Positions 14,631-51,609 of a stretch of 64,000 bases of DNA are shown here, one piece after another. Position 1 is the stretch's first letter, and every line of letters starts with the position of its first letter. This DNA is from Desulfuromonas sp. Its GTDB lineage: Bacteria; Desulfobacterota; Desulfuromonadia; Desulfuromonadales; Geothermobacteraceae. Where the stretch lies: NCBI GenBank assembly GCA_002868905.1, contig PKUA01000001.1:1-64000 (forward strand), read 5' to 3'. A program made the translations under genes and the position numbers. The notes under the pieces were generated by a model that was given only the letters and a program-made list of their open reading frames with translations, made no database searches and was not told where the DNA came from.

Positions 14631-16430
<1,800 letters not shown>

Positions 16431-16489
16431 GAATTTCCTCCGTAAGGTTCGTATGGTTCGATCGGCCAGAGCCGACGACAAAAGATACA

Positions 16490-16519
16490 ATTATAGGAAC
16501 GCTTATTCCAGGGCGTCAA
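16490..16519 (-). promoter_or_regulatory. Sigma-70 promoter of aspS
   Basis: On the minus strand TTGACG (16519-16514), 18 bp, then a perfect TATAAT (16495-16490). The -35 overlaps the hisS stop codon, so aspS has its own promoter. Confidence 0.65.
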
Positions 16520-17778
16520 GGGGATTCGCCGAGGATCGCGGCCAGGCGTTCAACAACGTCTTCGAGGGGGATGTCCTGTTGGTTCCCGTCGCTCATGTCG
16601 CGTAGCGGTGCAACCCCCTGCGCCAGTTCGTTTTCACCCAGAATCAGAACCCGCTGAGCTCCGAGTTTGTCAGCTCGACGAAATTGGGCTTTGAGACTTC
16701 GACCTTGATAATCCATCTCGACGAAAAAACCTCTGCGCTGCAGGAGGGACATGATGCGGAACGCTTCGCCGGCACCCTCATCGCCAAGCCCGGCGATGAA
16801 CAGGGCCGGGCTTTGTTGCCGGGCGTCGGCATCCCCTTTGAGCAACACCAGTCGCTCCACTCCCATGGCGAAACCGATGCCGGTCAGGTCGGGCCCGCCG
16901 ATCTGTTTCAGCAGGCCGTCGTAACGTCCACCCGCAGCCACGGCGCTCTGAGCGCCAAGACGGTCGGTCAGCAGTTCGAAGGTGGTCTTGGTGTAGTAGT
17001 CGAGGCCACGGACCATGCGCGGATTGACTGTGTAATCAAGCTCCAGAACCTGGAGATGGGACCGGACCGTCGCGAAGTGGGTGTCGCACCCTGCGCAGAG
17101 ATGGTCGAGAATCGACGGTGCGCCGTCCATCGCCTCCTTGCAGGCCGGGACTTTGCAGTCGAGAACCCGCAGCGGGTTGGTCTTGTAACGACGGCGGCAG
17201 TCTTCGCACAACGGTTCAAGCCGCTCCTCGATGAAGTCGACCAGTTGCTTGCGGTACTCCGGTCGGCATTCCGGGCAGCCGAGGGAGTTGACCTGCAGGG
17301 CCACATCGTCGATGCCGACCTCCTGGAAATAGTGGACCAGCATGGCGAGGACCTGGGCATCGATTTTCGGATCGTCGACTCCGATCACCTCGGCCCCGAT
17401 CTGATGGAACTGCCGATAGCGACCTTTTTGCGGTCTCTCGTGGCGGAACATCGGTCCGAAATAATAGAGCTTGTTGATCGGGTCGGACGCATGCAGCTTG
17501 TGCTGGGCGAAGGCGCGCATCACAGGAGCGGTCCCTTCCGGACGGAGCGTCAGGGAATGTCCCCCCTTGTCCTGGAAGGTGTACATCTCCTTTTCCACGA
17601 TGTCGGTGGTTTCGCCGATGGACCGGCAGAAAAGTTCAGTCTTCTCCACGACCGGAACCCGGATTTCCTTGAAGCCGTAGCGTTGAAATACCTCTCTGGC
17701 GGTCTGTTCCAGTTCCTGCCAGATGCCACTTTCGGCCGGCAGGATATCATTCATACCTTTTACAGCGTTGATGCTCAC
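16516..17778 (-). CDS. hisS: Histidyl-tRNA synthetase
   Basis: The 420-aa protein opens with VKGMNDILPAES, the classical HisRS start. Motif 2 is LTLRPEGTAPVMRAF with YFGPMFRHERPQKGRYRQFHQIGAE. The histidine-binding blocks LDYYTKTTFE and GGRYDGL and a C-terminal anticodon domain (AQFRRADKLGAQRVLILGENE) follow. It charges tRNA-His. The start is GTG 17778, with a weak GAGGAT ribosome site. It lies downstream of the GGDEF gene but is separated from it by the hairpin at 17892. Confidence 0.95.
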   Translation of the reverse strand: MSINAVKGMNDILPAESGIWQELEQTAREVFQRYGFKEIRVPVVEKTELFCRSIGETTDIVEKEMYTFQDKGGHSLTLRPEGTAPVMRAFAQHKLHASDPINKLYYFGPMFRHERPQKGRYRQFHQIGAEVIGVDDPKIDAQVLAMLVHYFQEVGIDDVALQVNSLGCPECRPEYRKQLVDFIEERLEPLCEDCRRRYKTNPLRVLDCKVPACKEAMDGAPSILDHLCAGCDTHFATVRSHLQVLELDYTVNPRMVRGLDYYTKTTFELLTDRLGAQSAVAAGGRYDGLLKQIGGPDLTGIGFAMGVERLVLLKGDADARQQSPALFIAGLGDEGAGEAFRIMSLLQRRGFFVEMDYQGRSLKAQFRRADKLGAQRVLILGENELAQGVAPLRDMSDGNQQDIPLEDVVERLAAILGESP

Positions 17779-17951: not shown

Positions 17952-19319
17952 CTAGCTCTTCACCTCTTCGGGACTCCGGGTGACGTTGCGCTGCTTTTTC
18001 CCCTCGTACATGGCTCGGTCCGCCATGTTCAAAATCCCGGTCTTGTCCTTGGCGTGATGCGGGAAGGTGGCATAACCTACCGTCGCGGTAATGCGTGATT
18101 TCTTGTCCGAATTGGCGAGGAAAAGATACGACTCGATTGAGGTCCGGATCCTTTCGGCGACGACACGGGCACCCTGGGTGCCGGTCTCGACCAGCAGGGC
18201 GGTGAACTCGTCTCCACCGTAACGGAACGGTACGTCGACCTCCCGAATGCTTTTCCGCAGCAGCTCGGAGACCTCCTGCAGTGCCGAACTTCCGGCCAGG
18301 TGACCATGGGTGTCGTTGATGGTTTTGAAATTATCGATATCGAAAAAGACCAGGGAGAACTCGAGACCATACCGTTCAGAGCGGCGGATCTCCTGGTCGA
18401 GGGCAATGTCAAGATACCGGAGGTTGTACAGGCCGGTCAGGTCGTCGGTGTAGATCAGTTCTCGCGCCCCCTGGTAGTGCAGAGCGTTGGCAAAGCCGAT
18501 ACAGGTCTGATCGCCAAGAAACTGAAGGTTCCCGTGTGGCGCATCTCCACAGTCCAACCCTTGCTGATTGCACACGACCAGGGCTCCCTTGGTGGTCGCA
18601 TCACATTTCAGCGGGTAGACGAAAATGGTGCGCAGGTCCGCCGGCAGGTTGCTCGATTCGGGGATGTCCTCTTTTTCAAGGGTCTGCAAACCGCTCCTGT
18701 CGATCGCGATATCAACGAGATGTTCTGCGAGACTCTCCGCTTCCGCCCGGTCAACATTACGGGTGGCAAAGACCTTTTTGCTTTCTTTACCGTCGGTCAG
18801 AAAAGCGAAACCACGGCCCCCGCCAATCTCCTGGCAGAGGGTGGATATGCTTCTCTCCAGCAGGCGTTCCAACTCGATCAGCGAGGCAATGTCCTGCCCC
18901 TTCTGGTAGAGGCGGATCTGCTGTTTGAGGATGGAGTTTTCATCCAGCAGGCGGCGCTGGTCGAGACATTTATGAACCAGGTGCCGGAGTTCTTCGGGGC
19001 TGAACGGTTTGGTGAGGTAGTCGCGGGCGCCGTTTTTCAAGGCGAGGATAGCTGTTTCAAGGGTAGCGTTGCCAGTGGCAAGGATGACCTCCGGCGGGTT
19101 GTCCAGGGCCCGTGCCTGGCGCAGCACTTCGAGGCCGTCGACCCCGGGCATAACGAGATCGGTGACAACCAGGTCGACTCCCCCCTGGCGAAGTCTTTCC
19201 ACAGCGGCGGTGCCTGAGTCGACGGTTTCGACCCGGTAGCTGTCTTCACTTAAAGCTTCTGCAAAAAGGTTGCGGAAGAACAGTTCGTCGTCCGCGACCA
19301 GTACAATGGGTTGCGACAT
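17952..19319 (-). CDS. Rec-GAF-GGDEF protein, probable Hypr-type (cGAMP) dinucleotide cyclase
   Basis: The 455-aa protein has a receiver domain (1-120; acidic pocket DD10-11, phospho-acceptor Asp54 in VVTDLVMPG, Lys104). A GAF-like domain spans about 140-285 and a GGDEF domain 290-445. The active site is RYGGDEF (GGDEF at 368-372), and an inhibitory-site motif RxxD (359-362) is present. In the base-contacting segment NDTHGHLAGSSAL, the Asp that contacts guanine in ordinary diguanylate cyclases (PleD Asp344) is Ser344. That Asp-to-Ser change marks the Hypr GGDEF enzymes of Geobacter, which make 3',3'-cGAMP (GacA). The protein probably makes cGAMP and some c-di-GMP, controlled by phosphorylation and perhaps by a GAF ligand. 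It follows comEC by 75 nt. Confidence 0.82.
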   Translation of the reverse strand: MSQPIVLVADDELFFRNLFAEALSEDSYRVETVDSGTAAVERLRQGGVDLVVTDLVMPGVDGLEVLRQARALDNPPEVILATGNATLETAILALKNGARDYLTKPFSPEELRHLVHKCLDQRRLLDENSILKQQIRLYQKGQDIASLIELERLLERSISTLCQEIGGGRGFAFLTDGKESKKVFATRNVDRAEAESLAEHLVDIAIDRSGLQTLEKEDIPESSNLPADLRTIFVYPLKCDATTKGALVVCNQQGLDCGDAPHGNLQFLGDQTCIGFANALHYQGARELIYTDDLTGLYNLRYLDIALDQEIRRSERYGLEFSLVFFDIDNFKTINDTHGHLAGSSALQEVSELLRKSIREVDVPFRYGGDEFTALLVETGTQGARVVAERIRTSIESYLFLANSDKKSRITATVGYATFPHHAKDKTGILNMADRAMYEGKKQRNVTRSPEEVKS

Positions 19320-19394: not shown

Positions 19395-21737
19395 TCAGGG
19401 CGGGGTTTCCCATGGTTTTATGCCCCAACCATTGCCGGTGGATGAGAGCAGAATCGTTCCATCCCGGTCGGTTCGCCACAAGCGAACTTGATGTCGCTGC
19501 AGAAGCTGCAGTGTTGAGCGGTGGGGGTGACCGTGGTTGTTACGGTATCCACAGGAGATGACCGCCTCGCGAATCAGGCAAGCTTCCAACAGCGGTCCCG
19601 GGTTGGAGGAACGGCTGCCGTGGTGGGGAATTTTAAGCAGCGTGACCTGCTCCGGGATGCCTGCTTCCGATAATTGCCTGATCCCCTCCTCCTCGATGTC
19701 CCCGGTGAGCAAGAGCCCGTCGGAACCGAGTCCCGCGTAAATGCTGATGGAGCGATCATTCAGGTTGGCTGCAACCTGGTCTGGTACGAACAGGTCAATC
19801 CGGTGCCCTTCATCCGGTCCGACGTCCTGCCAGCCAGGATGCAGCGGTTCAACCCTGATTTGACGCCGTTGCAGCAAAGTGTTCCACTCTGCCGGGAGAT
19901 CGGATGGTGGTACCGCTGTCAACAGGCGTGCGACCGGGAAGGTCTTGAGAATGTGGGTGAGACCTTCACGATGGTCCGGGTGATTGTGGGTCAGAATTAT
20001 CCCATCCAGCCTATGAACACCGAGTCGCCCCAACGCGGGACCGAGAAGTCGTTCCCCGACGTCAAAGTTTTTGCTGTAGGGAAGACCACCCCCATCGACC
20101 AGGTAATGGGCTCCGTTTTTCGAGAGCAGGAGGGACTCTCCCTGGCCGACGCTGAGTGCAGTCAACGAGAGGCCGGCGGGGTCGGGATATGGTAAACAGC
20201 CGAACAGGAGTCCGATGCCGACCAGAAGACCGCAGAAGGAAGTGGATTTGCGCGGCATGAACAGCAGGGTGAAAGCTATGAGGCCGATGGCCGTCAATTG
20301 CCACGGATCGAGATAGACGAAGCGTCCGGCGCCGAACCAGGTTGCATTCATCGTTTCAAGCCAACCGAAACCGACATGTAGCAAGAAACCCCCGACATGC
20401 CAGAGGAACTCGGCAGCCCCCGGACACAACAGGTAGCAGAGCAGACCGAGTAAGCCGAGCGGCAGGACTGTACATCCGATCAGGGGGATCGCCCAGAGGT
20501 TGTTGAACAGGCCCGCCGGAGCGAAGATATGGAAGTTGGCCAAGACAAACGGTGTCGTTGCCACAGTGGCGGCGAGGGAGGCGAGAAAAAGCCGGGACGG
20601 TGAGCGCAGCCAGACCGGTAACTTTCCGGTGTGTCTTGACCAGTGAGGAAGAGCCATCAGCAGTCCTGCCGCGCCGGCAAAGCTGAGTTGAAACGCCGGG
20701 GTGAAGAGCTGTAGTGGTTGCCCAAGCAGCAGGAACAGACCGATTGTCGCCAACAGGTGCATGGGGCGACACTGTCGGTTGAACAGAACAATGCCGATTG
20801 CCAGGGCTGTGGCGAGGAAGGCGCGCTGGGTGGAGATGGCGGCTCCTGTCAGCAGTAAAAAGAGGTAGAGCAGGGGCAGGACAAGCCAGGGGATGACTCT
20901 TGCCGGTGGCGACCAGAGCATCAACCTGCGGGAGCGGCAGTACAAAACGAGCAGCAATTGGTAGCAAACGAGAGCCACCAGGCTGAGATGAAGTCCCGAT
21001 ATGGCGAAGATGTGGGCAACGCCGCTGGCGGCAAGGAGTCGCCTTTGTGCGGGATCGAGGCGGTGGCGCTGGCCAAGCAGCAGGCTTTGCAGTAGTCGAC
21101 CCTCCGGCAGGGGAACGGCATTTTCGATGGCGCCGGCCAGCTTCTGTCTCCATTCGGCGATGGAGCGGTTCAGGGAGCCGTCAGGTCTTCGCTCAACGGC
21201 AATTTGCTCTCCCGATGTCAGATGTCCGGTCGCGGTTACCCCTTCACTTGCCAGAAACGTGGCGTAATCGAATTCTCCCGGGGTGCCGAAATTTCGTGGT
21301 GTGCGGAGGTGCGCCAGTGCATGAAGTCGGTCTCCGGGCAGCAGGTTCGGGACCTCCCGGTCGAGAAACAACCTGACAAGTCCCGGGACAGGTTCTCCTC
21401 CGGGCTCAATCCGGAGGTCCTCAAGCTCGACAAAGCCGCTCCGGTCGGCGAATAACTCGACCCGGTTTGCGTAACCGTTAAACCTGACCGGGTCGGAGAA
21501 CGGATCGATCAGTGCCCTCGCCTGGGTCGTCGGGTTGAGCGCGAGAGGGTAAAGCAGCAACCCGCAGCCGAGAAACAAACCGGCGCATTTGGCAGAGATG
21601 GGGATATGGCGCTGCCGGCAGACTGCAAGCAGCAAACAGATCAGGGCTGCGGACCAGATCGTCTCGGTGCTCAGGTCCAGGAGGGTTGCCAACCATAGTC
21701 CTGATATCAGGAAGGTGATCGGCAGCAGGGGGTGCAT
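19395..21737 (-). CDS. comEC: ComEC/Rec2 family DNA-uptake channel protein
   Basis: The 780-aa protein has an N-terminal DUF4131-type part with an OB-like domain (FNGYANRVELFADRSGFVELEDLRI). The central competence domain has many membrane helices and the block LLASSGVAHIFAISGLHLSLV. The C-terminal metallo-beta-lactamase-like domain has ILTHNHPDHREGL (HxHxxDH-like), LLLTGDIEEEG and KIPHHGSRSSN. ComEC brings single-stranded DNA through the inner membrane in natural transformation; the C-terminal domain may degrade one strand. It starts 3 nt after the secreted-protein gene upstream, so the two are co-transcribed. Type IV pili, usually needed for DNA uptake, are encoded elsewhere in the window. 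Confidence 0.9.
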   Translation of the reverse strand: MHPLLPITFLISGLWLATLLDLSTETIWSAALICLLLAVCRQRHIPISAKCAGLFLGCGLLLYPLALNPTTQARALIDPFSDPVRFNGYANRVELFADRSGFVELEDLRIEPGGEPVPGLVRLFLDREVPNLLPGDRLHALAHLRTPRNFGTPGEFDYATFLASEGVTATGHLTSGEQIAVERRPDGSLNRSIAEWRQKLAGAIENAVPLPEGRLLQSLLLGQRHRLDPAQRRLLAASGVAHIFAISGLHLSLVALVCYQLLLVLYCRSRRLMLWSPPARVIPWLVLPLLYLFLLLTGAAISTQRAFLATALAIGIVLFNRQCRPMHLLATIGLFLLLGQPLQLFTPAFQLSFAGAAGLLMALPHWSRHTGKLPVWLRSPSRLFLASLAATVATTPFVLANFHIFAPAGLFNNLWAIPLIGCTVLPLGLLGLLCYLLCPGAAEFLWHVGGFLLHVGFGWLETMNATWFGAGRFVYLDPWQLTAIGLIAFTLLFMPRKSTSFCGLLVGIGLLFGCLPYPDPAGLSLTALSVGQGESLLLSKNGAHYLVDGGGLPYSKNFDVGERLLGPALGRLGVHRLDGIILTHNHPDHREGLTHILKTFPVARLLTAVPPSDLPAEWNTLLQRRQIRVEPLHPGWQDVGPDEGHRIDLFVPDQVAANLNDRSISIYAGLGSDGLLLTGDIEEEGIRQLSEAGIPEQVTLLKIPHHGSRSSNPGPLLEACLIREAVISCGYRNNHGHPHRSTLQLLQRHQVRLWRTDRDGTILLSSTGNGWGIKPWETPP

Positions 21738-23622: not shown

Positions 23623-26163
23623 ATGATCGACGCTTATTTACGCCATGAAGAAGAGAGAAATGCCCAGGGGATTCCGGCCCTGCCGTTGAACCCGGAACAG
23701 ACAACGTCCCTTTGCGAGCTGTTGCAGAATCCCCCGGCCGGCAAGGAAGAGTTCCTGATGAACCTTTTCACCCAGCGGATTTCGCCCGGTGTCGATCCGG
23801 CCGCCGAAGTCAAAGCCGCCTTTCTCGCCGATATCCTGACCGGCGCCAAGAGCTCACCGCTGATCGACAAGGTCAAAGCGGTGCAGATCCTCGGCACCAT
23901 GATCGGTGGCTACAACGTGCAGCCGCTGATCGATGCCCTTAAGGACAGCGCCCTGGCCGATGAGGCCGCATGCGCTCTCTCCGGCCTGACCTACATCTAC
24001 GATGCGGCCGACCAGGTGTTCGAACTGGCCAAGAACAACGCCGCTGCCAAGAAGGTCGCCGAGTCCTGGGCCAACGCCGAGTGGTTCACCAACAAGCCGG
24101 AGATCCCGGAGTCCATCACCGTCAAGGTGTTCAAGGTTGAAGGCGAGATCAATACCGACGACTTCTCCCCGGCCGGCGATGCCTGGAGCCGTCCCGACAT
24201 TCCGCTGCATGCCCTGGCCATGGGCAAGACCCGCTTCCCCGGTGGCATCGAAGAGATCGCCAAGTGGCGTGAAGAGGGGCACCAGGTCGCTTTTGTCGGC
24301 GACGTGGTCGGCACCGGTTCTTCCCGTAAATCGGCCTGCAATAGCGTGCTCTGGTGTATCGGTGACGACATCCCGGCGGTCCCGAACAAGCGCCGTGGTG
24401 GTGTCATCATCGGTGGCGTCATCGCCCCGATCTTCTTCAACACCGCCCAGGACTCCGGCGCTCTGCCGCTGAAGATGGATGTGGCCAACCTCAACATGGG
24501 CGACGTCATCACTATCAATACCGCCAAGGGTGAAGTGACCAATCAGGCAGGTGAGGTCGTTTCGACCTTCGAAATCAAGCCGAACACGGTGCCGGACGAG
24601 TACCGCGCCGGCGGCCGGATTCCGCTGATCATCGGTCGTTCACTGACCACCGCCGCCCGCGAGGCGCTCAACCTCGGCGAGGCCGAGTTCTTTGCCTTGC
24701 CGGATAACCCGACCCCGAAATCGGGCCAGGGTTACACCCAGGCGCAAAAGATGGTCGGCAAGGCGTGCGGCGTCGACGGGATTCTCCCCGGTACTGCCTG
24801 TGAGCCGCTGATGACCACCGTCGGTTCCCAGGATACCACCGGCCCGATGACCGCCGACGAGATCAAGGAGCTCGCCTGCCTCAAGTTCCAGTCACCGATG
24901 TTCATGCAGAGCTTCTGCCACACCGCAGCCTATCCGAAGCCGGCCGACGTCAAGATGCACAACACCCTGCCGGACTTCATCGCCGAGCGTGAGGGCGTTG
25001 CCCTGCGTCCCGGTGACGGCGTTATCCATAGCTGGCTAAACCGCCTGCTGGTCCCCGACACCGTCGGCACCGGCGGCGATTCGCACACCCGCTTCCCGAT
25101 CGGTATCAGCTTCCCGGCCGGCTCCGGCCTGGTCGCCTTCGGTGGCGCCATGGGCTTCATGCCGCTCGATATGCCGGAGTCGGTGCTGGTCCGTTTCAAG
25201 GGTGAGTTCAACGAAGGGATCACCCTGCGCGACGCGGTCAACGCCATCCCGTACTACGCGATCAAGCAGGGGCTGCTGACCGTACCGAAGAAGAACAAGG
25301 TCAACATCTTCAACGGTCGCATCCTCGAGATGGAAGGGCTGCCGAAACTCTCGGTCGAGCAGGCTTTCGAGCTGACCGACGCCGCCGCTGAGCGCTCTGC
25401 CGCCGCCGGTTGCATCCAGCTCTCCGAGGATTCGGTCAGCGAATATCTCCGCTCCAACATCGCCCTGATGGAGAAGATGATCGAGGAGGGCTACCAGCAT
25501 CCCGACACCTTGCGCAAGCGGATCGAGGCGGTACAGGAGTGGCTCAAGGATCCGAAGCTGATCAAGGCCGACGCCAACGCCGAGTACGCCGCCGTGATCG
25601 AGATCGACCTGGCCGAGATTACCGAGCCGATCCTCGCCTGCCCGAACGATCCGGACGACGTCAAGCTCCTCTCCGATGTTGCCGGCACCGAGATCCAGGA
25701 CGTTTTTCTCGGTTCCTGCATGACCAACATCGGTCACTTCCGCGCCGCCGCCGAGATCTGGCGTGGCCAGAAGTTCAACCCGGCCGTCCGTACCTGGATC
25801 TGCCCGCCGACCCGGATGGACCAGGACAAGCTTAAGGAAGAGTCGATCTTCTCGATCTACAGCGCCATGGGCGCCCGCATCGAGATTGCCGGCTGCTCGC
25901 TTTGCATGGGCAACCAGGCCCGTGTTCCCGATGGGGTCAACATGTTCTCCACCTCGACCCGTAACTTCGACGACCGGATCGGTAATGGCGCCAAGGTTTA
26001 CCTCGGTTCCGCCGAACTCGGTGCCGTGACCAGCAACATGGGCAAGCTGCCGACACCGGCCGAGTACCTGGCCGTGTTCAAGGAGAAGGTCGCGCCGAAG
26101 AAGGACGAGATCTATCAGTACCTGCAGTTCGACGAGATGGACGGTTACAAGCAGTCGGCCTGA
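23623..26163 (+). CDS. acnB: Aconitate hydratase B / 2-methylisocitrate dehydratase
   Basis: The 846-aa protein has the AcnB-specific domain order. The N-terminal HEAT-like domain (DAYLRHEEERNAQGIPALPL) is followed by the swivel domain (VKVEGEINTDDFSPAGDAW-type block; VGTGSSRKSACNSVLW) and then the catalytic domains. These contain GGDSHTRFPIGISFPAGSG, the cluster ligands FLGSCMTNIGHF and CSLCMGNQARV, and STSTRNFDDRIG. It binds one [4Fe-4S] cluster and interconverts citrate and isocitrate. GGAGGAGA precedes ATG 23623. It is a single-gene unit that ends at a strong terminator and supplies isocitrate to Icd. Confidence 0.96.
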   Translation: MIDAYLRHEEERNAQGIPALPLNPEQTTSLCELLQNPPAGKEEFLMNLFTQRISPGVDPAAEVKAAFLADILTGAKSSPLIDKVKAVQILGTMIGGYNVQPLIDALKDSALADEAACALSGLTYIYDAADQVFELAKNNAAAKKVAESWANAEWFTNKPEIPESITVKVFKVEGEINTDDFSPAGDAWSRPDIPLHALAMGKTRFPGGIEEIAKWREEGHQVAFVGDVVGTGSSRKSACNSVLWCIGDDIPAVPNKRRGGVIIGGVIAPIFFNTAQDSGALPLKMDVANLNMGDVITINTAKGEVTNQAGEVVSTFEIKPNTVPDEYRAGGRIPLIIGRSLTTAAREALNLGEAEFFALPDNPTPKSGQGYTQAQKMVGKACGVDGILPGTACEPLMTTVGSQDTTGPMTADEIKELACLKFQSPMFMQSFCHTAAYPKPADVKMHNTLPDFIAEREGVALRPGDGVIHSWLNRLLVPDTVGTGGDSHTRFPIGISFPAGSGLVAFGGAMGFMPLDMPESVLVRFKGEFNEGITLRDAVNAIPYYAIKQGLLTVPKKNKVNIFNGRILEMEGLPKLSVEQAFELTDAAAERSAAAGCIQLSEDSVSEYLRSNIALMEKMIEEGYQHPDTLRKRIEAVQEWLKDPKLIKADANAEYAAVIEIDLAEITEPILACPNDPDDVKLLSDVAGTEIQDVFLGSCMTNIGHFRAAAEIWRGQKFNPAVRTWICPPTRMDQDKLKEESIFSIYSAMGARIEIAGCSLCMGNQARVPDGVNMFSTSTRNFDDRIGNGAKVYLGSAELGAVTSNMGKLPTPAEYLAVFKEKVAPKKDEIYQYLQFDEMDGYKQSA

Positions 26164-26544: not shown

Positions 26545-28047
26545 ATGAAGACCGGACTCAGAACGGAAATCGTTATCAGCGTCAGTCTGCTGCTGGCCGC
26601 GGCCTTGTTGTTCGCCGGCTTTTTGCTGGTGAAACTGACCGAGCAGGAGTTGCTGGAGCAGCGCCGCTCCGCTTCGTTCGATACGGTGCGTCAGGTCGTT
26701 GCCATGCTCGAAGCAAGCTTCGCCCAGGGACATTCCGATGCCTGGAAGGACGAGGCCGCGGTTCTATTCCAGGCATTTCGACATCGGTCCGACCTTGCCG
26801 GGTGGCGTTTTGTCGATGCGGCGGGGGTGACTCTGTTCAGCATGCTGTCCGGCGAGCAGGAGTCCTTCTCTGAACTCCCTGTCAGCCGGTTGTTGAGCGG
26901 AGAGATCGTTGAGAGTGTCACCTATTCATCGAGCTGGTTTACCGGAGAGGTCCCAACTTCAAATCGCCTTGACCTGGTTGCCCCGGTAACGCGGGGAGGT
27001 GATTTTGTCGGTGCGTTCCAGGCGCGTTTCTCCCTGTCGCCTCTGGTAGAGCGGGTTCACAAGGCTCAACGTCTGATTTTTATCTGCGTGATCGGGTACG
27101 GCCTGGTTTTGGCCTTTTTCGGTGTTTACCAACTCAGTCGCAACGTGGTGCAGCCGGTGCGGCGATTGCAAAGCGCTACCGCCGACGTTGCTTCGGGCTC
27201 ACTTGCCCGGGTCGATGTGACCGGCGGACCGGGAGAGATCACTGATCTGGCCGAGAGCTTCAACCAGATGGTTGACGCCCTCGGCACCAGTCGCGATGAG
27301 ACCGAGGCTCATATCGAATCACTGACCGAGGCCAATCGTGCCCTGGCCCGGGCCAGGGACGATCTGGTCCGGTCGGAAAAAATGGCGTCGGTCGGCCACC
27401 TGGCGGCGGGGATGGCTCACGAAATAGGTAACCCTCTCGGTGCCTTGTTCGGCTACCTCGATATGCTCGGCAGCGATTTGCCGGGAGAAGCGGAGCGCGA
27501 CCTGGTGAGGCGTGCCCGCGACGAGGCCGGAAGAATTGACACCCTGGTACGTGAGCTGCTCGATTATGCAGCCCCGGAAACACAACCGGGCGCACTTTGT
27601 TGTCCGGTGAACCTGTTGCGCGAAACCGTGACGCTGCTTTCTCATCAGGGGGCGATTAGTCGGTTGAAAGTGGAGGACCGATTGCGGGAGCCAGCAGGGA
27701 AAGTACGAATTGGGCCGCAGCGGCTTCAGCAAGTCTGGGTCAACCTGATCCTCAACGCCAGGGATGCGATGGAAAACGAGGGGAGGTTAACGTTGTCGTC
27801 CGGGGAGTCAGGGGGGATGCTGACCATCTCACTGACTGATAGCGGCAGCGGGATGACCGCAGCGGTCGCCCGACAGATTTTTGAGCCGTTCTTTACGACC
27901 AAGGACCCTGGCAAGGGAAGGGGGCTCGGCCTGGCGGTCTGCCAGAGAATTGTCGAGGATGCCGGTGGACGAATCGAGGTCAGTTCAGCCGACGAAGGCG
28001 GTTCGGAGTTTCGCGTTTCTTTGCCGGTTGCCGAAGAGAGAACCTGA
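26545..28047 (+). CDS. Membrane sensor histidine kinase paired with a sigma-54 activator
   Basis: The 500-aa protein has membrane helices at 10-30 and 176-196 enclosing a periplasmic sensor domain of about 145 residues. A HAMP domain (197-249) and a coiled linker follow. The HisKA domain has GMAHEIGNPLGALFGY (phosphorylated His292), and the HATPase domain has WVNLILNARDAME, LTDSGSGMT and GLGLAVCQRIVEDAGG. It should autophosphorylate and pass phosphate to the response regulator that starts at its stop codon (TGATG overlap). The sensed signal is unknown. The pair precedes the minor pilin cluster, suggesting it controls that cluster. Confidence 0.88.
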   Translation: MKTGLRTEIVISVSLLLAAALLFAGFLLVKLTEQELLEQRRSASFDTVRQVVAMLEASFAQGHSDAWKDEAAVLFQAFRHRSDLAGWRFVDAAGVTLFSMLSGEQESFSELPVSRLLSGEIVESVTYSSSWFTGEVPTSNRLDLVAPVTRGGDFVGAFQARFSLSPLVERVHKAQRLIFICVIGYGLVLAFFGVYQLSRNVVQPVRRLQSATADVASGSLARVDVTGGPGEITDLAESFNQMVDALGTSRDETEAHIESLTEANRALARARDDLVRSEKMASVGHLAAGMAHEIGNPLGALFGYLDMLGSDLPGEAERDLVRRARDEAGRIDTLVRELLDYAAPETQPGALCCPVNLLRETVTLLSHQGAISRLKVEDRLREPAGKVRIGPQRLQQVWVNLILNARDAMENEGRLTLSSGESGGMLTISLTDSGSGMTAAVARQIFEPFFTTKDPGKGRGLGLAVCQRIVEDAGGRIEVSSADEGGSEFRVSLPVAEERT

Positions 28048-29408
28048 TGGGAAAAGAGCATGGCAACATCCTGGTTGTCGATGACGAAGCGCCGATGCGT
28101 CATATGCTCCGGCTGTTGCTCGAACGGAACGGCTATGCCGTTGCCGAGGCGTCGAGCGGCCGGCAGGGGTTGAGCAGGCTGCAAACAGGAGAGTACCCCC
28201 TGGTCTTGTGTGATATCCGGATGCCGGACTTGAACGGCCTCGAATTTCTCCAGGAGAAATTGGCCAGGGAGCTTAACGGTACCGTCATCATGATGAGCGC
28301 CTATGGCACCATCGACACCGCGGTGGAATGCATGAAAAACGGCGCCTATGACTTTATCTCGAAGCCGTTCCGTCCCGACGAGGTCCTGCTTGCTATCCGC
28401 AAGGCGGAAGAGCGTCTCGAGCTGCACCGGGAAAACACCCAGTTGAAGCAGAAAATTCGACGTTCCGTCCGGCCCCAGGGGCTGGAAGCGATTGTGCACC
28501 GAAGTGCGTCGATGAAAGAACTCCTGGCAACGGTCGCCAAGGTCGCGTCCAGCTCGGCGTCGGTGTTGATCACCGGCGAGACCGGGACCGGCAAGGAGCT
28601 GGTTGCGCGGGCCCTCCATCTGGAGAGTCCGCGTTGTGACAAGCCGTTTCTGGCTGTCAATTGCAGCGCCATTGCCTCGGGGTTGCTGGAGAGCGAGCTT
28701 TTCGGGCATGCCAGGGGGGCTTTTACCGGTGCCGACCGGGAGCGGGAAGGGCTTTTCGGCGCCGCCGATGGCGGAACGTTGTTGCTGGATGAAATTGCCG
28801 ACCTGCCGATGGAACTGCAGCCGAAGCTGTTGAGGGTGTTGCAGGAACAAGAGGTGCGCCGGGTCGGTGAGAGCCGCGCCCGCAAAATCGATGTTCGGTT
28901 GGTCGCGGCGAGCGCGACCAACCTGGCTGATGCTGTTACCCAGGGACGGTTCCGCGAGGACCTTTATTATCGATTGGCGGTGGTAACCCTCGAAATCCCG
29001 CCGCTGAGAAAACGAAGGGATGATATTGCCGCTCTGGTTGAGTCGTATCTCCCCCTGATCGCTTCACGCATGAACCGCCCGGTTCCACGTCTGTCGGACC
29101 AGGCCATGGCGAAGCTGGAAAGCCATGACTGGCCGGGCAATGTTCGTGAGCTGGTCAACTGCCTCGAAAAGACCCTTGTGCTCTGCCATGAGGAGTTCAT
29201 AGAAGAGACAGCTCTCACTTTGCCGGGGATTTCGCTTGAACCGGAGCGGGCCCTTTCGCTGAAAACAGCCGTGGCGGAACTCGAACGGGACCATATTTGT
29301 CGAGCCCTTGCCGAAACCGGCGGTAATCGGACCCGGGCGGCCAAACTCCTGGAAATCAGCCTGCGCGCCCTGATGTACAAGATCAAGGATTATCGCATCG
29401 ATGGTTGA
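28047..29408 (+). CDS. NtrC-family sigma-54-dependent response regulator
   Basis: The 453-aa protein has a receiver domain (Asp56 in LVLCDIRMPDLNG, Lys106-type SKPF). The AAA+ domain has Walker A GETGTGKE, the sigma-54 contact loop GAFTGA, Walker B GGTLLLDEIADLP and an arginine-finger region (REDLYYRL). The C-terminal Fis-type helix-turn-helix is GGNRTRAAKLLEISLRALMYKI. It activates RpoN promoters when phosphorylated, by the kinase encoded just upstream. A near-consensus -24/-12 promoter lies 137 nt after its end, before pilV, and is its most likely target. Confidence 0.92.
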   Translation: MGKEHGNILVVDDEAPMRHMLRLLLERNGYAVAEASSGRQGLSRLQTGEYPLVLCDIRMPDLNGLEFLQEKLARELNGTVIMMSAYGTIDTAVECMKNGAYDFISKPFRPDEVLLAIRKAEERLELHRENTQLKQKIRRSVRPQGLEAIVHRSASMKELLATVAKVASSSASVLITGETGTGKELVARALHLESPRCDKPFLAVNCSAIASGLLESELFGHARGAFTGADREREGLFGAADGGTLLLDEIADLPMELQPKLLRVLQEQEVRRVGESRARKIDVRLVAASATNLADAVTQGRFREDLYYRLAVVTLEIPPLRKRRDDIAALVESYLPLIASRMNRPVPRLSDQAMAKLESHDWPGNVRELVNCLEKTLVLCHEEFIEETALTLPGISLEPERALSLKTAVAELERDHICRALAETGGNRTRAAKLLEISLRALMYKIKDYRIDG

Positions 29409-29543
29409 TCGGGGGCTGCGGGGGCCGGACAGGCTGTTGCAAATATTGCGCACTCACTATGCAAAATTTGCATTTTTTGACGAAATTCCCTCTGTTTCGA
29501 AAAAAAACCGACACGATTTCGGCCGTTTGCCGAAGATGTTCTT

Positions 29544-29559
29544 TGGTATGTGTCTTGCT
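29544..29559 (+). promoter_or_regulatory. Sigma-54 (-24/-12) promoter of the pilV-pilW-pilX-pilY1 operon
   Basis: TTGGTATGTGTCTTGCT contains GG (29545-29546), exactly 10 bp, then GC (29557-29558), close to TGGCACG-N4-TTGCT. A transcript would start near 29570, about 27 nt before pilV. The AT-rich stretch 29440-29530 upstream may hold activator sites. Confidence 0.72.
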
Positions 29560-29596
29560 GATTACCCAGGTTAACTTACTTTTTCGGAGAGCGCCC

Positions 29597-30025
29597 ATGC
29601 AGAACCACATGTCGGATGAATCAGGTTTTTCGCTCGTCGAACTTCTGGTGGCCGTTTTTATCCTCGCTATCGGTCTTCTCGGCATGGCGGAACTTCAGGT
29701 AACCGCAATCAAGGCTAACGCCCAAAGCAGTTCGATCAGCGTGGCGAACGCCCTGGCCCAAAAGGCCGTCGAGGATATCGCGGCCATGTCGGCCGATGAG
29801 GCGATTTTTTCCACGGCCGTAACCGATGCAACCTGGGCCGGCAGCCCGTTCACCGTTGACGGGGCCGGGGTTTACAACGTGACCTACGACCTGGAGCCGA
29901 ATTTCGGTACCGTGACAGGCCTCTCCAGGATCACCCTGCACGTCAGAAGCGCGGGTCTGGTTTCGAATGTCCTCGGAAACAGCATGCGCGCTGTCGACGT
30001 GATCACTTTCAAACGTTCGTTCTAG
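29597..30025 (+). CDS. pilV: Type IV pilus minor pilin PilV
   Basis: The 142-aa prepilin has leader and cleavage site SG|FSLVELLVAVFILAIGLLGM, with Glu5 of the mature protein present. This is the PilV/GspI-type helix that ends in GMAELQ. The globular part is short and ends with DVITFKRSF. Start ATG 29597 has GGAG seven nt upstream; the open frame further upstream is not coding. It should form part of the priming complex or pilus tip with PilW, PilX and PilY1, whose genes follow directly. Prepilin peptidase is not in this window. Confidence 0.85.
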   Translation: MQNHMSDESGFSLVELLVAVFILAIGLLGMAELQVTAIKANAQSSSISVANALAQKAVEDIAAMSADEAIFSTAVTDATWAGSPFTVDGAGVYNVTYDLEPNFGTVTGLSRITLHVRSAGLVSNVLGNSMRAVDVITFKRSF

Positions 30026-30034
30026 GAGATCGCC

Positions 30035-30940
30035 ATGCTGAGTCGTAGAACAAGCACGACCAACGCCAGCGGGTTTACCATGGTCGAAACCATCATGGTG
30101 ATGGCCATCCTCAGTATCGTCATGATGGCGATCATGAGTCTCTATATCCCGGCGGTTCGCTCATCATCCGTTCAGACTGAGTTGAGCGAGACCCAGGCCA
30201 ACCTCCGGCTGGCCATGGACCGGATGACCCGTGACCTCCTCTCCGCGGGATTCCTGGTCCGGCCCGAATATGCTGCCGGCGGTGCGGCGGGAGCGATCTT
30301 ATGGCAAGGAGATGTCGCCTCCGAGGATACCGATGACCTGACAATCCGGACTCGCTTGATTGGTGATTCGTTCGGGCGGGTCGTTGACAACGACGGCGCC
30401 GGGAAATTCGCCCTGAGCAATCAGGATATGGCATCGGCTTTTACCGTCAATTCGACGGTGCGAATTTTCCAACCGATGTCTGCCGTAGAAGCCGAAGGGA
30501 TCGGCGTCGATTACGATGAGGACGACCCGACAACCTACGACGATTACCTGCACACGGTGACCGCCATCGATGACTCGGGGACGGGAACGGTCAACGGCAC
30601 GACCTACCCGGCCATCCTGACCCTGAATCCCGCACCGACCGGTACTTTCAACCAGTCCGTGATTGTAAAAATCAGGGACAATGCGCAACCCCCGATGCAG
30701 ACGATTCGTTATCGGGTCAACAACGGGGCGCTCGAGCGTATCGTGAATGGCGTAACGCAATTGCTCGCTCCCGGAGTCGAGTCGGTCCTGTTCGACTATG
30801 AGCGGTCCGCCACCGGGGCGGTGAAGAAGATTGACATTACCCTGACCGGTGAGCCGGTGGGCCGGGAAGGCGGGGGGATCGAGTCCGAGGATAAAGAGCG
30901 GCAACTGCAAACCTCGGTCACCCTGCGAAACGTCTATTGA
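30035..30940 (+). CDS. pilW: Type IV pilus minor pilin PilW
   Basis: This 301-aa prepilin has cleavage site SG|FTMVETIMVMAILSIVMMAIM with Glu5, followed by the PilW/GspJ-type segment TQANLRLAMDRMTRDLLSAGF. The large C-terminal domain is acidic, with DYDEDDPTTYDDY. A TAGGAGAT site precedes ATG 30035, nine nt after pilV. In known systems PilW acts with PilV and PilX to build the tip complex carrying PilY1. Confidence 0.85.
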   Translation: MLSRRTSTTNASGFTMVETIMVMAILSIVMMAIMSLYIPAVRSSSVQTELSETQANLRLAMDRMTRDLLSAGFLVRPEYAAGGAAGAILWQGDVASEDTDDLTIRTRLIGDSFGRVVDNDGAGKFALSNQDMASAFTVNSTVRIFQPMSAVEAEGIGVDYDEDDPTTYDDYLHTVTAIDDSGTGTVNGTTYPAILTLNPAPTGTFNQSVIVKIRDNAQPPMQTIRYRVNNGALERIVNGVTQLLAPGVESVLFDYERSATGAVKKIDITLTGEPVGREGGGIESEDKERQLQTSVTLRNVY

Positions 30941-30950
30941 GGAGGTCTTT

Positions 30951-31493
30951 ATGTTGAACGTCGCCAAGAGAGTCTGCGCGGGAGAGCGTGGTATGGCGTT
31001 GATCCTGGCAATCGGGTTTCTTACCATTTTGAGTATTGTCGGTGCGCTTGTTATCCGGGTTTCAACTGAGGACCTCACCAAGGCGGGTTTAGAGAGAACC
31101 GAGCGGGAAGTGTTCTACGCCGTCGACCGCGCCGTTGAGTATTCGATGACCCGCGGTTTGATCCTGAGCATGCCGGTCAACGGGACGGTCGACCTGATCA
31201 ATGACAACATCGACGGGACAGCCACCAAGCACCACACCGTGATCGACACGGGTGACAGTGTCCTCGACTCGGGCAGCGTCGCCGACCTGGGACCGAACGA
31301 TCTCCCCGCGGCCGCCGCCGAGCTGTTCGGTGACGAGTTCGGAGCGAATTACTATCACGTCGAGGTGAAATCGAAGTCGACCCGCCTGGATGCGGGTGGC
31401 AACCCGGTTGAAGAGACCCACGTCGATTCGAGCATCGTACGCTTGTTCAAGCGTGACGACGACACCATTTTCCGTACCTCAAGAGGAGGTTGA
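30951..31493 (+). CDS. pilX: Type IV pilus minor pilin PilX
   Basis: The 180-aa product starts at ATG 30951. GAGGAGG overlaps the pilW stop just upstream. The leader ends ERG|MALILAIGFLTILSIVGALVI. The usual Glu5 is missing, as is common in PilX/GspK-type tip pilins. TEREVFYAVDRAVEYS after the helix is the typical PilX region. The remainder is a small acidic globular domain. It lies between pilW and pilY1 in the operon. Confidence 0.82.
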   Translation: MLNVAKRVCAGERGMALILAIGFLTILSIVGALVIRVSTEDLTKAGLERTEREVFYAVDRAVEYSMTRGLILSMPVNGTVDLINDNIDGTATKHHTVIDTGDSVLDSGSVADLGPNDLPAAAAELFGDEFGANYYHVEVKSKSTRLDAGGNPVEETHVDSSIVRLFKRDDDTIFRTSRGG

Positions 31494-31495
31494 TC

Positions 31496-34400
31496 ATGTT
31501 TATGTCCAGATGCCTAACGGTTTTTTCGATCTGCCTGCTCCTGTTGTTCGGCGGCATGTCCGTTGTATCGGCGACCCCGCCGGACGACTACCTCGGGGAT
31601 TCCTCGATCTATACCGGGGTGCCGAGTCAGCGCCCGACCCCGAACGTCCTGTTCGTCATCGATACCAGCCGTTCCACCCTGTCACGCGCGCCGGGGGTCG
31701 GCTACGATTCGGCGACTACCTACTCGATCGCCACCGGCTTCGATACCGACCAACTCTACGTCGGCGACCAGTTCGGTACCTTCTCCCCATCTCGGGCCCT
31801 TGGCTCGGTCAAGTTGACCAACAACGGCACCGATCCCTATGTATTTTGTAACCCGTCCTACACCGTGCCGGACCCAATGGGCGGGCCGGATATTGCAAAG
31901 AACACCGATGTGCAGGCTATTCTTGCGGCCAATGGCACCTATTCCGGCGCCGGCACCAACAAGTTCCCCAATCTCGCAACCGACGGAGACTGCCTGGGCG
32001 CCCCGCAGGGCCGTGTTTATGCCACCGGGAATTATTTGAACTACACGTACGCACTTTCGGTGGTGGAAGCCGATGCCGTCATCATCCAGCACACCTATAA
32101 CTGGTGCCGAAACGCGAGGCAGTGCTTTACTGAAACTGGGAATTTTCTCCTGACCGCCGATCTCATCAATGCGGGTGCGGCCCAGGAACCGGGGGTCGGT
32201 TCCGAATGGGAGCTTTACTGGAGTTCGACGACGGAACCGGCAACCTACCCGGATGATGACTCCGACGGAATATGGGACGGTGTCGATGGCTGGGATCCCG
32301 CCACTTATCAGAACTATTATCTTCCGGCCTCAGCTGATGCCGTCACCCAGCGCGAGGCTTTCTACTCGGCGCTTGAGCCGGTCATCCGGGGGGCGAGCGG
32401 GGCGGTCAACCTCGGTTTTCTCGCCTACAACCCGAACAACCAGGGGGCGGTGGTCGGCCAACATATGGCGTTTTACGGCGACGACCCGAGCGCGCTGATC
32501 GACGCCCTGCCGCAGGGGGACGAGGACGGCGACGGCGACATCGAGGACGAGGACCCGTCTGTTATCGCCTCCGGCCCGAACCGGCCCCAGGCCGAGGCGT
32601 TGTACGATGCCGGCTACTACTTCATGGTCGACAACGGCAGCTTCACCCCGGTCTATCGCAAGAAGGACGGGGCATTGCCGTCCCAGCAATCGATCAACCT
32701 GACCGCGAGCGACCAGATCCCCGCCGATATGATCAACATCTGCGGCTACAACCACGTAATCCTTTTGACCAACGGCCTCCCCAACCAGGACGGCGACCCG
32801 GCCCTCGACCTCGGCGACTACGACAACGACGAGTATGGGAACGAGGGGACTTACGGCGCCGGCACTCACTACCTCGACGATGTCGCCTACTACCTGCACA
32901 ACGTGGTCGACATCAACGGCGACGCCAAGCCGGGAGACGTCACGGTTCACACCATCCTCGCTTTCCAGACCGAGGACGAGCTGATCAAGAACACCGCCGA
33001 GGACGGCGGCGGCTACTTTTACAATGTCCAGGACACCAACGGCCTGACCAAGGCGCTGCAGGAGATCCTGGCGAGTATCGTCAGCGAGACCGACACCGCC
33101 TTCGTCGCGCCGGTCGTCCCGGCCAGCTCGACCAACCGGACCATCAGCAGTAACAAGGTCTACCTCGGTCTGTTCAAACCGCAGTCGAACGAACCGTGGC
33201 ACGGCAACCTGAAAAAGTACAAGGTCAACAGCGATAACGAACTGCTCGACTCTCTCGGCAACCGGGCGACCGACGACCAGGGAGATTTCGTCTACTCCCA
33301 GTCATACTGGGGGACCGGGACGATCGCCGGACAGACCAAGATCATGTCGGCGGACGGCCCGCGCAACACGGTGCCTGCGGGTTACGACCCGGAAGATCCG
33401 ACGGCCATCGTCGATCTGCACGGAGGTGACGGCGGTATCGTCAACGCAGGCGGCGCCGGCGGTACCCTGCAGGCGCGCGACTTCACCACCAACCCGCGCA
33501 AAATCTACACCTACCTGACGCCGGCAAACAGCGGGGTTGCCTCGGCCGACAGCAGCCTGATCGCCACGCAGAACCTGTTCGCCGTCAGCAACACCGACAT
33601 CACGTACAACACCACCCTCGATGTCCCCGATGCGACGGTCCGCAACAAGCTGATTAATTATGTCCACGGCTACGCTGCATTCAGCACTACGCCGACCGCC
33701 AAGCGGAATTGGATCTTCGGCGACATCCTCCATTCGAAGCCGTTGGTGTTCAACTACACCAACTACACCGACGCGAATGAAACGACCTGTTTCCCCAGCC
33801 CGCTGTTCGATCCGACCGACAGCGACCCGGTGGTCGCCGCCAGCAACGGCACGACCAGCTTCAACTCATCGGTGATTTTCGTCGGGGCGAACGACGGTAT
33901 GCTGCACGCCATCCGCGACTGCGACGGGGAGGAGCTCTGGGCTTTTGTTCCGCCGAGCCTGCTCAACCATCTCAAGTGGCTGCCGCAGTCCGGCCACGAG
34001 TATTACGTCGACGCGCCGGCGTCCGCCTACGTGCACGACTTCGACAACGACGGGGCGATCGAACCGGGTGCGGGCGACAAGGTGATCCTGGTCATGGGGC
34101 TGCGGCGCGGCGGCGGCAAGTCCTTTTTGACTCCGAATGAGCCGCGTGGTTCCTACTTCGCGATCGACGTGACCAAGCCGAACTCGCCGGTCTTCCTCGG
34201 GGAGGTCGACAATACCTCCACCAACCTCGGGGAGATGGGAGAGACCTGGAGCCAGCCGCGCCTGCACAAGATCATGGACGGGACGACCGAGAAATTGGTC
34301 TTTTTTGTCGGCGCCGGCTACGACACCAACGAGGACCGGCGCTGGGGGAACACCCAGGATTTCCCGACGTCGAACGTATCGAGCCCGGTCAACCCCTTCC

Positions 34401-35605
34401 TTGACACCGACACCACCGTGCTGACCAATGACGGCGACCCGGGGGTCAGCAACGCCGGGGTGACTTCGGCCGGGGGTGGGTCGCAGCTTAACCCGAAGGG
34501 GCGCGGCCTGTTCATCATCGAACTCGCGACGTTGAATAAGGACGGTAATGGCGACTACACCCCGGACTTCTCCAACGGCGGGACGGTCGTCTGGAAATAC
34601 ACCTACGCTGAGGACTCCGACATGACCTTCTCGATCCCCAGCGATATCGCCGTCATCGATTGGGACGGGGACGGTTTTGCCGACCGGGCTTATGCCGGCG
34701 ACACCGGCGGCCGGGTCTGGTGCTTCGAAATGCCGATCGACCGGGTCACCGACCCCGCCAACCCGACCGGGGACAAGTCGGCCTGGACCGGCCGGAAGAT
34801 CTTCAACGGCAATCAGGGCTATACCGGGTCGTTCGACTCGGACGGGGTCATGAGCAGCTCGGCGGACGGATCTCTCGGCAAGAAGTTCTTTTATCGCCCG
34901 TCGATCTCGCGTATCGGTCCCTACGCCGCCCTCTACTTTGGCTCCGGTGACCGTGTTCACCCGCTCAACCTCGCTTCGAACGATCGGCTCTACATGCTGA
35001 TCGACCGTGGCCAGGGCGCAGCCAGCGACGATGCCGGCACGACCTTTGACGAGACGACGGCGATCACGGAACAGAATCTGGTCGATGTGACCGAGAACGA
35101 ACTGCAGAACAGCTCCAGCGCCGACCAGGTGGCCGGGGTGCTTGATGAACTTTACGATGACGCCAACTTAGGCTGGTATATCCGCTTGCAAAATCCGGGT
35201 GAAAAGATGCTGGCACCTCCAGTCGTCTTCTTCGGCCAGGTGTTCTACACCACCTACGCGCCGTTGGTCGGATCGGTGTCCGGGTGCGAAGTCGGTAACC
35301 TGGGGGTTTCGAGGCTCTACCATCTCACCTACCGGACCGGCGAGGCGGCCTACGACTACGACTCGTCCAACAATGCGGACGACACCTCGTCTAATACCCG
35401 GGCGGACGGGGACGACGGCGAGGTGCTGAAAAAGTCAGACCGGGTCCGGGTCCTGGGTGAAGGTATCCCGTCCGGTATCGTGACCCTGATGGATGCCAGC
35501 GGCAAGGTCACCATGATGATCAGCGCGAGTAACCGCGTCGGAGCCTACGATGCACCGGACGCCAAGCTCATTACCCCTGTCTACTGGATTCAGTGGAACG
35601 AATAG
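31496..35605 (+). CDS. pilY1: PilY1-like pilus tip adhesin/assembly protein
   Basis: From ATG 31496 (GAGGAGG six nt upstream) the protein has 1369 aa and a signal peptide (LTVFSICLLLLFGGMSVVSA). A von Willebrand A-like domain starts at about residue 50 with VLFVIDTSRST, a MIDAS motif (Asp56, Ser58, Ser60). The C-terminal PilY1 beta-propeller (about 760-1300) has FVGANDGMLHAI and two EF-hand-like calcium loops, DFDNDGAIE (848-856) and DWDGDGFAD (1055-1063). PilY1 caps the pilus, controls retraction through Ca binding and mediates attachment. TTG 31490 is an in-frame but less likely start. The gene ends at a strong terminator. Confidence 0.88.
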   Translation: MFMSRCLTVFSICLLLLFGGMSVVSATPPDDYLGDSSIYTGVPSQRPTPNVLFVIDTSRSTLSRAPGVGYDSATTYSIATGFDTDQLYVGDQFGTFSPSRALGSVKLTNNGTDPYVFCNPSYTVPDPMGGPDIAKNTDVQAILAANGTYSGAGTNKFPNLATDGDCLGAPQGRVYATGNYLNYTYALSVVEADAVIIQHTYNWCRNARQCFTETGNFLLTADLINAGAAQEPGVGSEWELYWSSTTEPATYPDDDSDGIWDGVDGWDPATYQNYYLPASADAVTQREAFYSALEPVIRGASGAVNLGFLAYNPNNQGAVVGQHMAFYGDDPSALIDALPQGDEDGDGDIEDEDPSVIASGPNRPQAEALYDAGYYFMVDNGSFTPVYRKKDGALPSQQSINLTASDQIPADMINICGYNHVILLTNGLPNQDGDPALDLGDYDNDEYGNEGTYGAGTHYLDDVAYYLHNVVDINGDAKPGDVTVHTILAFQTEDELIKNTAEDGGGYFYNVQDTNGLTKALQEILASIVSETDTAFVAPVVPASSTNRTISSNKVYLGLFKPQSNEPWHGNLKKYKVNSDNELLDSLGNRATDDQGDFVYSQSYWGTGTIAGQTKIMSADGPRNTVPAGYDPEDPTAIVDLHGGDGGIVNAGGAGGTLQARDFTTNPRKIYTYLTPANSGVASADSSLIATQNLFAVSNTDITYNTTLDVPDATVRNKLINYVHGYAAFSTTPTAKRNWIFGDILHSKPLVFNYTNYTDANETTCFPSPLFDPTDSDPVVAASNGTTSFNSSVIFVGANDGMLHAIRDCDGEELWAFVPPSLLNHLKWLPQSGHEYYVDAPASAYVHDFDNDGAIEPGAGDKVILVMGLRRGGGKSFLTPNEPRGSYFAIDVTKPNSPVFLGEVDNTSTNLGEMGETWSQPRLHKIMDGTTEKLVFFVGAGYDTNEDRRWGNTQDFPTSNVSSPVNPFLDTDTTVLTNDGDPGVSNAGVTSAGGGSQLNPKGRGLFIIELATLNKDGNGDYTPDFSNGGTVVWKYTYAEDSDMTFSIPSDIAVIDWDGDGFADRAYAGDTGGRVWCFEMPIDRVTDPANPTGDKSAWTGRKIFNGNQGYTGSFDSDGVMSSSADGSLGKKFFYRPSISRIGPYAALYFGSGDRVHPLNLASNDRLYMLIDRGQGAASDDAGTTFDETTAITEQNLVDVTENELQNSSSADQVAGVLDELYDDANLGWYIRLQNPGEKMLAPPVVFFGQVFYTTYAPLVGSVSGCEVGNLGVSRLYHLTYRTGEAAYDYDSSNNADDTSSNTRADGDDGEVLKKSDRVRVLGEGIPSGIVTLMDASGKVTMMISASNRVGAYDAPDAKLITPVYWIQWNE

Positions 35606-51601: not shown

Positions 51602-51609
51602 GGTGAATC

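Follow-up and report, generated by a model that had tools for sequence, protein, structure and literature searches.

A GacA-type Hypr GGDEF gene beside hisS in a Desulfuromonas genome, and predicted OFF switches among the A20 GEMM-I riboswitches of the same genome

A much-studied Hypr enzyme is GacA, which makes 3',3'-cGAMP and is known as GSU1658 in Geobacter sulfurreducens and, for its GGDEF domain, from Gmet_1914 of G. metallireducens (PDB 6d9m / 5VS9). Ser348 of this protein touches the base, the combination of Ser with GGEEF is inactive, and native enzymes with Ser or Thr at this place carry GGDE[F/Y] only (PMC6456294, eLife 2019, 6d9m structure). In addition, residue 304 stacks across the dimer and influences the product ratio; among the residues tested there (Tyr, Ser, Ala, Gln and Arg), enzymes with Tyr, Ser, Ala or Gln make mainly cGAMP, while the Y304R mutant makes more c-di-GMP (PMC6456294). 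Two other Hypr enzymes, GSU1937 and Bd0367, which we compared by description only, likewise have Ser at the selectivity position, and GSU1937 differs from the protein studied here in its HAMP and transmembrane parts and its GGDDF motif (PMC8835794, PMC9140294). On the receptor side, the crystal structure work on the cGAMP riboswitch numbers two of its features as A14 and the pair C15-G40, and it includes a G20A GEMM-I RNA in complex with cGAMP (4YB1, PMC6274999); a G20A RNA has also served as a c-AMP-GMP sensor (PMC11352751). Two switches illustrate the opposite output plans: in pilM, a cGAMP ON switch of G. metallireducens, the terminator takes up the 3' strand of the aptamer, whereas in Cd1, a c-di-GMP OFF switch of Clostridium difficile, the terminator is compatible with the aptamer and the antiterminator is formed by the aptamer 3' strand and the 5' arm of the terminator (PMC9262584).

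The gene under study lies in a stretch of 64,000 nucleotides, referred to here as the window, and its product has in common with GacA the domain order, the selectivity Ser, the GGDEF motif, the I-site residues, the REC phosphoacceptor Asp, which was the same in 18/18 orthologs compared, and the place beside hisS (Table 1; residues given in GacA numbering follow the G. metallireducens protein). Among solved structures the GGDEF domain was closest to the G. metallireducens GacA domain 6d9m (189 bits, 88/155 residues identical), compared with 132 bits for PleD, and a structural search, which gave little information on the middle domain, returned GGDEF and REC-GGDEF proteins, 6d9m being one of the top matches (Z 18.6 at 54% identity). 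The alignment matched Ser344 to Ser348 of 6d9m and to an Asp in PleD, so that the original prediction, which had read this Ser as the counterpart of the base-selecting Asp344 of PleD, was borne out, and the residue falls within the guanine-contact position when GacA and a canonical cyclase are aligned with it. PleD, the canonical diguanylate cyclase of Caulobacter, shares the GGDEF fold and an aligned RxxD I-site with the window protein but combines Asp344 with GGEEF, while the window protein combines Ser344 with an intact GGDEF, as had been predicted, and follows the "Goldilocks" rule of Ser with GGDEF rather than GGEEF. The inhibitory RxxD motif claimed earlier is also present, and the second I-site arginine is retained too. 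Less can be said for the proposed GAF-like middle domain: the strand and helix order of an AlphaFold2 model is GAF-like at low confidence (pLDDT mostly 50-65), but a Pfam search of the window protein gave no match to this region, and among 18 orthologs GAF was matched in 3 and GAF_2 in 2, with poor E-values.

Table 1. Positions of the features discussed. Coordinates refer to the window except for the last row, where G000 denotes this genome and C numbers its contigs.
Feature	Position	Strand	Basis or remark
gacA ortholog, REC-(GAF-like)-GGDEF Hypr protein, 455 aa	17952..19319	-	ATG start; one ORF
REC domain, residues 6-115	18975..19304	-	Pfam PF00072, E 1.2e-27
REC phosphoacceptor Asp54	19158-19160	-	codon read
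Middle domain, residues about 140-285, GAF-like (weak)	18465..18902	-	ortholog Pfam matches and low-confidence model
GGDEF domain, residues 290-444	17988..18452	-	Pfam PF00990, E 4.4e-40; identical span in genome-wide search
Leu300, cross-dimer residue (Tyr304 of G. metallireducens GacA)	18420..18422	-	codon and ortholog alignment
Ser344, Hypr signature (Ser348 of G. metallireducens GacA, Asp344 of PleD)	18288..18290	-	codon AGT, in GHLAGSSAL; alignment
I-site RxxD, residues 359-362 (R359-E-V-D362, REVD)	18234..18245	-	sequence and ortholog alignment
GGDEF motif, residues 368-372, Asp in third place	18204..18218	-	sequence and ortholog alignment
Second I-site arginine R390	18150-18152	-	sequence and ortholog alignment
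hisS, kept downstream neighbour	16516..17778	-	
aspS, kept next gene downstream	14631..16490	-	
comEC/rec2-like gene (presumed), kept upstream neighbour	19395..21737	-	
acnB	23623-26163	+	
Second Hypr GGDEF protein, 336 residues	G000:C38:61618-62088 (locus L170:5604-6611)	-	Ser348, GGDEF and Ala at 304 (GacA numbering)

Orthologs were sought in 58 genomes of the order, including that of the window itself, at a threshold of E <= 1e-50, and 52 of these contained one match each. All 52 keep Ser348, Asn339, the GGDEF motif, R363, D366 and R394 (GacA numbering). Since Ser occupies the selectivity position in every ortholog examined, while Asp stands there in all but one of the remaining GGDEF domains in this genome whose motif could be read, Ser344 is not a chance substitution. 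The gene lies near acnB and hisS, as stated in the original prediction, and the upstream neighbour is taken, from its sequence, to be comEC/rec2-like. The order comEC-gacA-hisS-aspS, in the same orientation, was found in nearly all orthologs whose flanks reach far enough. In G. sulfurreducens hisS is GSU1659 (PMC2923632), next in number to gacA (GSU1658), and the position of the gene is therefore kept across orders. The conserved gene order, together with orthologs in 52/58 genomes that all combine Ser with GGDEF, thus identifies the window gene, as far as sequence comparison goes, as the local ortholog of gacA and an ordinary member of a known family, and this agrees with the earlier proposal of a probable cGAMP synthase with a Hypr signature, which the best match to 6d9m and the conserved selectivity, Asn339 and I-site residues support as well. 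When contigs of named genomes were scanned with the window protein, only distant relatives were recovered, with the canonical Asp in those checked. REC-GAF-GGDEF look-alikes from Desulfuromonadales and Geobacteraceae MAGs (L038-L045) have Asp with GGEEF, mostly with His at the place of residue 304, and are non-Hypr proteins with a combination that the Goldilocks rule permits for diguanylate cyclases. Elsewhere in the window, at 26545-35605 and 50480-52827, there are genes for a histidine kinase with a sigma-54 response regulator, for pseudopilin-like and PilY1-like proteins and for an ATPase resembling PilT, probably a set of type IV pilus genes.

From these residues we infer how catalysis, product ratio and regulation of the window protein would work. 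Asp370 of the GGDEF motif would hold Mg2+ and Ser344 would take guanine or adenine, so that the protein probably forms cGAMP as a promiscuous enzyme, and its intact I-site would bind dinucleotide and exert feedback; inputs would arrive through the REC domain and the GAF-like domain. We consider it very likely that this gacA ortholog encodes a dimeric promiscuous dinucleotide cyclase whose main product in the cell would be 3',3'-cGAMP. One difference from GacA is at the cross-dimer contact, where Tyr304 is replaced by Leu300. Other orthologs have Tyr, His, Gln, Phe, Ser or Val at this place and the window protein is the only one of the 52 with Leu; because Leu is outside the residues reported as tested there, its product ratio may differ. 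An enzyme of the GacA fold whose cellular role is chiefly that of a diguanylate cyclase, either through the changed contact at Leu300 or for want of a cGAMP receptor, would fit the influence of residue 304 on the ratio seen in Y304R, the uniqueness of Leu and the absence from the genome of the validated Geobacter-type cGAMP riboswitch. However, the residue favouring c-di-GMP is Arg, the usual one in diguanylate cyclases, which occurs at 304 in none of the 52 orthologs, several other residues at this place are compatible with mainly cGAMP production, and a plain c-di-GMP role would have no need of the invariant Ser344, all of which makes this alternative improbable.

A second source of cGAMP has also to be considered, since one more of the 16 GGDEF matches in the genome, besides the window protein, carries Ser. 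The I-site of this second Hypr protein is degenerate (RRVN, lacking the arginine at 394 in GacA numbering). Relatives of the second type with Ser and GGDEF were examined at 24 further loci and this type is common in the order. A quick tree of GGDEF domains placed the GacA group and the second Hypr group each in a clade of its own; the free tree requires two changes for the origin of Ser, and a tree with a single Ser clade scored higher and was not rejected (AU 0.72). That the second protein is the main cGAMP synthase and the window protein idle or minor would be in line with its active-site residues, a degenerate I-site that might escape feedback inhibition, the presence of the second type in four genomes of one family (f18) in which no GacA match passed the threshold, and the finding that GSU1937, the second Hypr enzyme of G. 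sulfurreducens, outweighs GacA on Fe(III) citrate (PMC8835794), but every catalytic residue of the window protein is intact and conserved, which speaks against idleness and makes this alternative very improbable.

The receptors of a signal made by the GacA ortholog would have to be sought outside the window, where an Rfam search at the gathering threshold gave no match of any family, in agreement with the earlier statement that no GEMM-Ib riboswitch was recognised there. The whole genome contained 16 GEMM-I matches, 15 of them over the cut-off, and according to our own reading of the alignment position 20 is A in 11 and G in 5. We take alignment position 20 to be A14 of the crystal numbering and the pair 21-46 to be C15-G40. 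The suggested genome search for GEMM-Ib riboswitches yielded 0 exact matches to the Geobacter-type cGAMP signature, A20 with C21-G46 (AAUACUAAACC ... CGGAAAGC), although other orders of the class have it in abundance; Geobacter, with GacA, has such riboswitches, whereas this organism has the enzyme and lacks them. Instead, all 11 A20 aptamers of the genome have G21-C46. The exact A20/G21-C46 pattern occurred 10 times in this genome, the top count in the searches of relatives and of the class, in 82/277 genomes of the class (a few by chance) and in few genomes elsewhere in the phylum. Because the G20A GEMM-I RNA, which carries the same A20 change, binds cGAMP, it is plausible by analogy that the A20/G21 aptamers bind cGAMP as well, and the receptors would probably be among these 11 riboswitches. 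Same-family relatives keep the enzyme and have few or no A20 aptamers, which counts against this reading. A phylogenetic profile of A20 aptamers against GacA (28/52 genomes with GacA and 0/6 without; Fisher 0.024, kinship ignored) was set aside, as four of the six GacA-less genomes belong to one family nearly devoid of GEMM-I and the exact pattern undercounts, with loci L212 (G024) and L209 (G004) read as A20. Three tandem A20/G21 riboswitches lie inside 1 kb at G000:C17:11616-12549 (L032:3017-3950), and a terminator-like hairpin of almost the same sequence comes after each of them, although the U tract of the third is broken. Three G20 riboswitches on contigs C65, C73 and C22 (L025, L031, L036) have the Geobacter-type C21-G46 pair, and both of those that could be classified show the ON layout.

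The layout of all aptamer sets was classified with one script. In the control set of Geobacter-type A20/C21 aptamers, aptamer and terminator overlapped, as in an ON switch, in 33/33 classifiable cases, in agreement with the literature. The 11 A20/G21 riboswitches of this genome comprised nine with stand-alone terminators, one without a terminator by the rule used, and an ambiguous one on contig C1 that was classed differently in two analyses. Among relatives, 35 A20/G21 riboswitches were stand-alone, 9 overlapping, 2 near and 15 unclassifiable, and the stand-alone count is conservative since in several of the 9 overlapping cases the hairpin concerned is the predicted antiterminator. The stand-alone plan of A20/G21 switches, which occurs in 14 further families, is thus well supported, differs from that of A20/C21 (Fisher 1.8e-15, kinship ignored) and was also found in 16/16 classifiable G20/G21 aptamers of relatives. 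Moreover, the pairing of terminator arm and aptamer strand had a mean of -13.4 kcal/mol compared to -8.4 kcal/mol for letter-shuffled arms, and for transcripts ended before the closing arm the predicted antiterminator had a mean probability of 0.48-0.99 in 8/9 cases and 0 in one. When strands and arms were matched locus by locus, 220/2000 permutations were as low for the A20/G21 set, which is not significant alone, and 13/2000 for the pooled A20 and G20 sets, which is significant, suggesting only partial covariation between aptamer strand and terminator arm. A stand-alone terminator with an antiterminator that uses the aptamer 3' strand is the plan of Cd1 and opposite to the overlapping layout of pilM; unlike Cd1, the A20/G21 riboswitches have at position 20 the A that is associated with recognition of cGAMP. 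By layout they are therefore predicted to be OFF switches. A literature text search, from whose scope the founding cGAMP-riboswitch and Hypr papers fell out, returned no description of OFF-type A20 switches.

Where the genes after the A20 switches could be read, they encoded both members of a two-partner secretion system (ShlB/FhaC-like and TPS-domain proteins), a PilZ protein, a protein with a weak match to SpoIIAA, and large exported-looking proteins without clear families; two riboswitches run off contig ends, and some targets thus lie outside this readable set. At G000:C56:1-3720 (L028) two A20 riboswitches stand upstream of genes for a ShlB/FhaC-like transporter and a TPS-domain exoprotein. 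The identifiable downstream genes are, judged by their sequences, mainly surface and secretion genes. Several multihaem cytochromes are present elsewhere in the genome, and none turned up immediately after the A20 riboswitches with readable targets. Control of extracellular electron transfer, which the original prediction had carried over from Geobacter, is accordingly unsupported in this organism, because the identifiable downstream genes are mainly of the surface and secretion type and the Geobacter-type riboswitch is absent by pattern.

Taken together, the results show that GacA, along with the selectivity Ser and the flanking genes, is common throughout the order (52/58 sampled genomes), far beyond Geobacter. 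In the present genome the synthase is found with many A20/G21 aptamers whose expression platforms are of the OFF type in place of the validated Geobacter-type riboswitches. A tentative reading, which we consider possible although rather unlikely, is that the A20/G21-C46 aptamers are a second lineage of A20 GEMM-I riboswitches, built as OFF switches, through which GacA-derived cGAMP shuts down surface and secretion genes in this bacterium and across its order, contrary to the ON response in Geobacter. If the A20/G21 aptamers bind cGAMP, the signal would silence its regulon in this organism. This raises the testable questions of how one signal can have opposite effects in neighbouring orders and of whether the first use of cGAMP signalling was something else than metal respiration.
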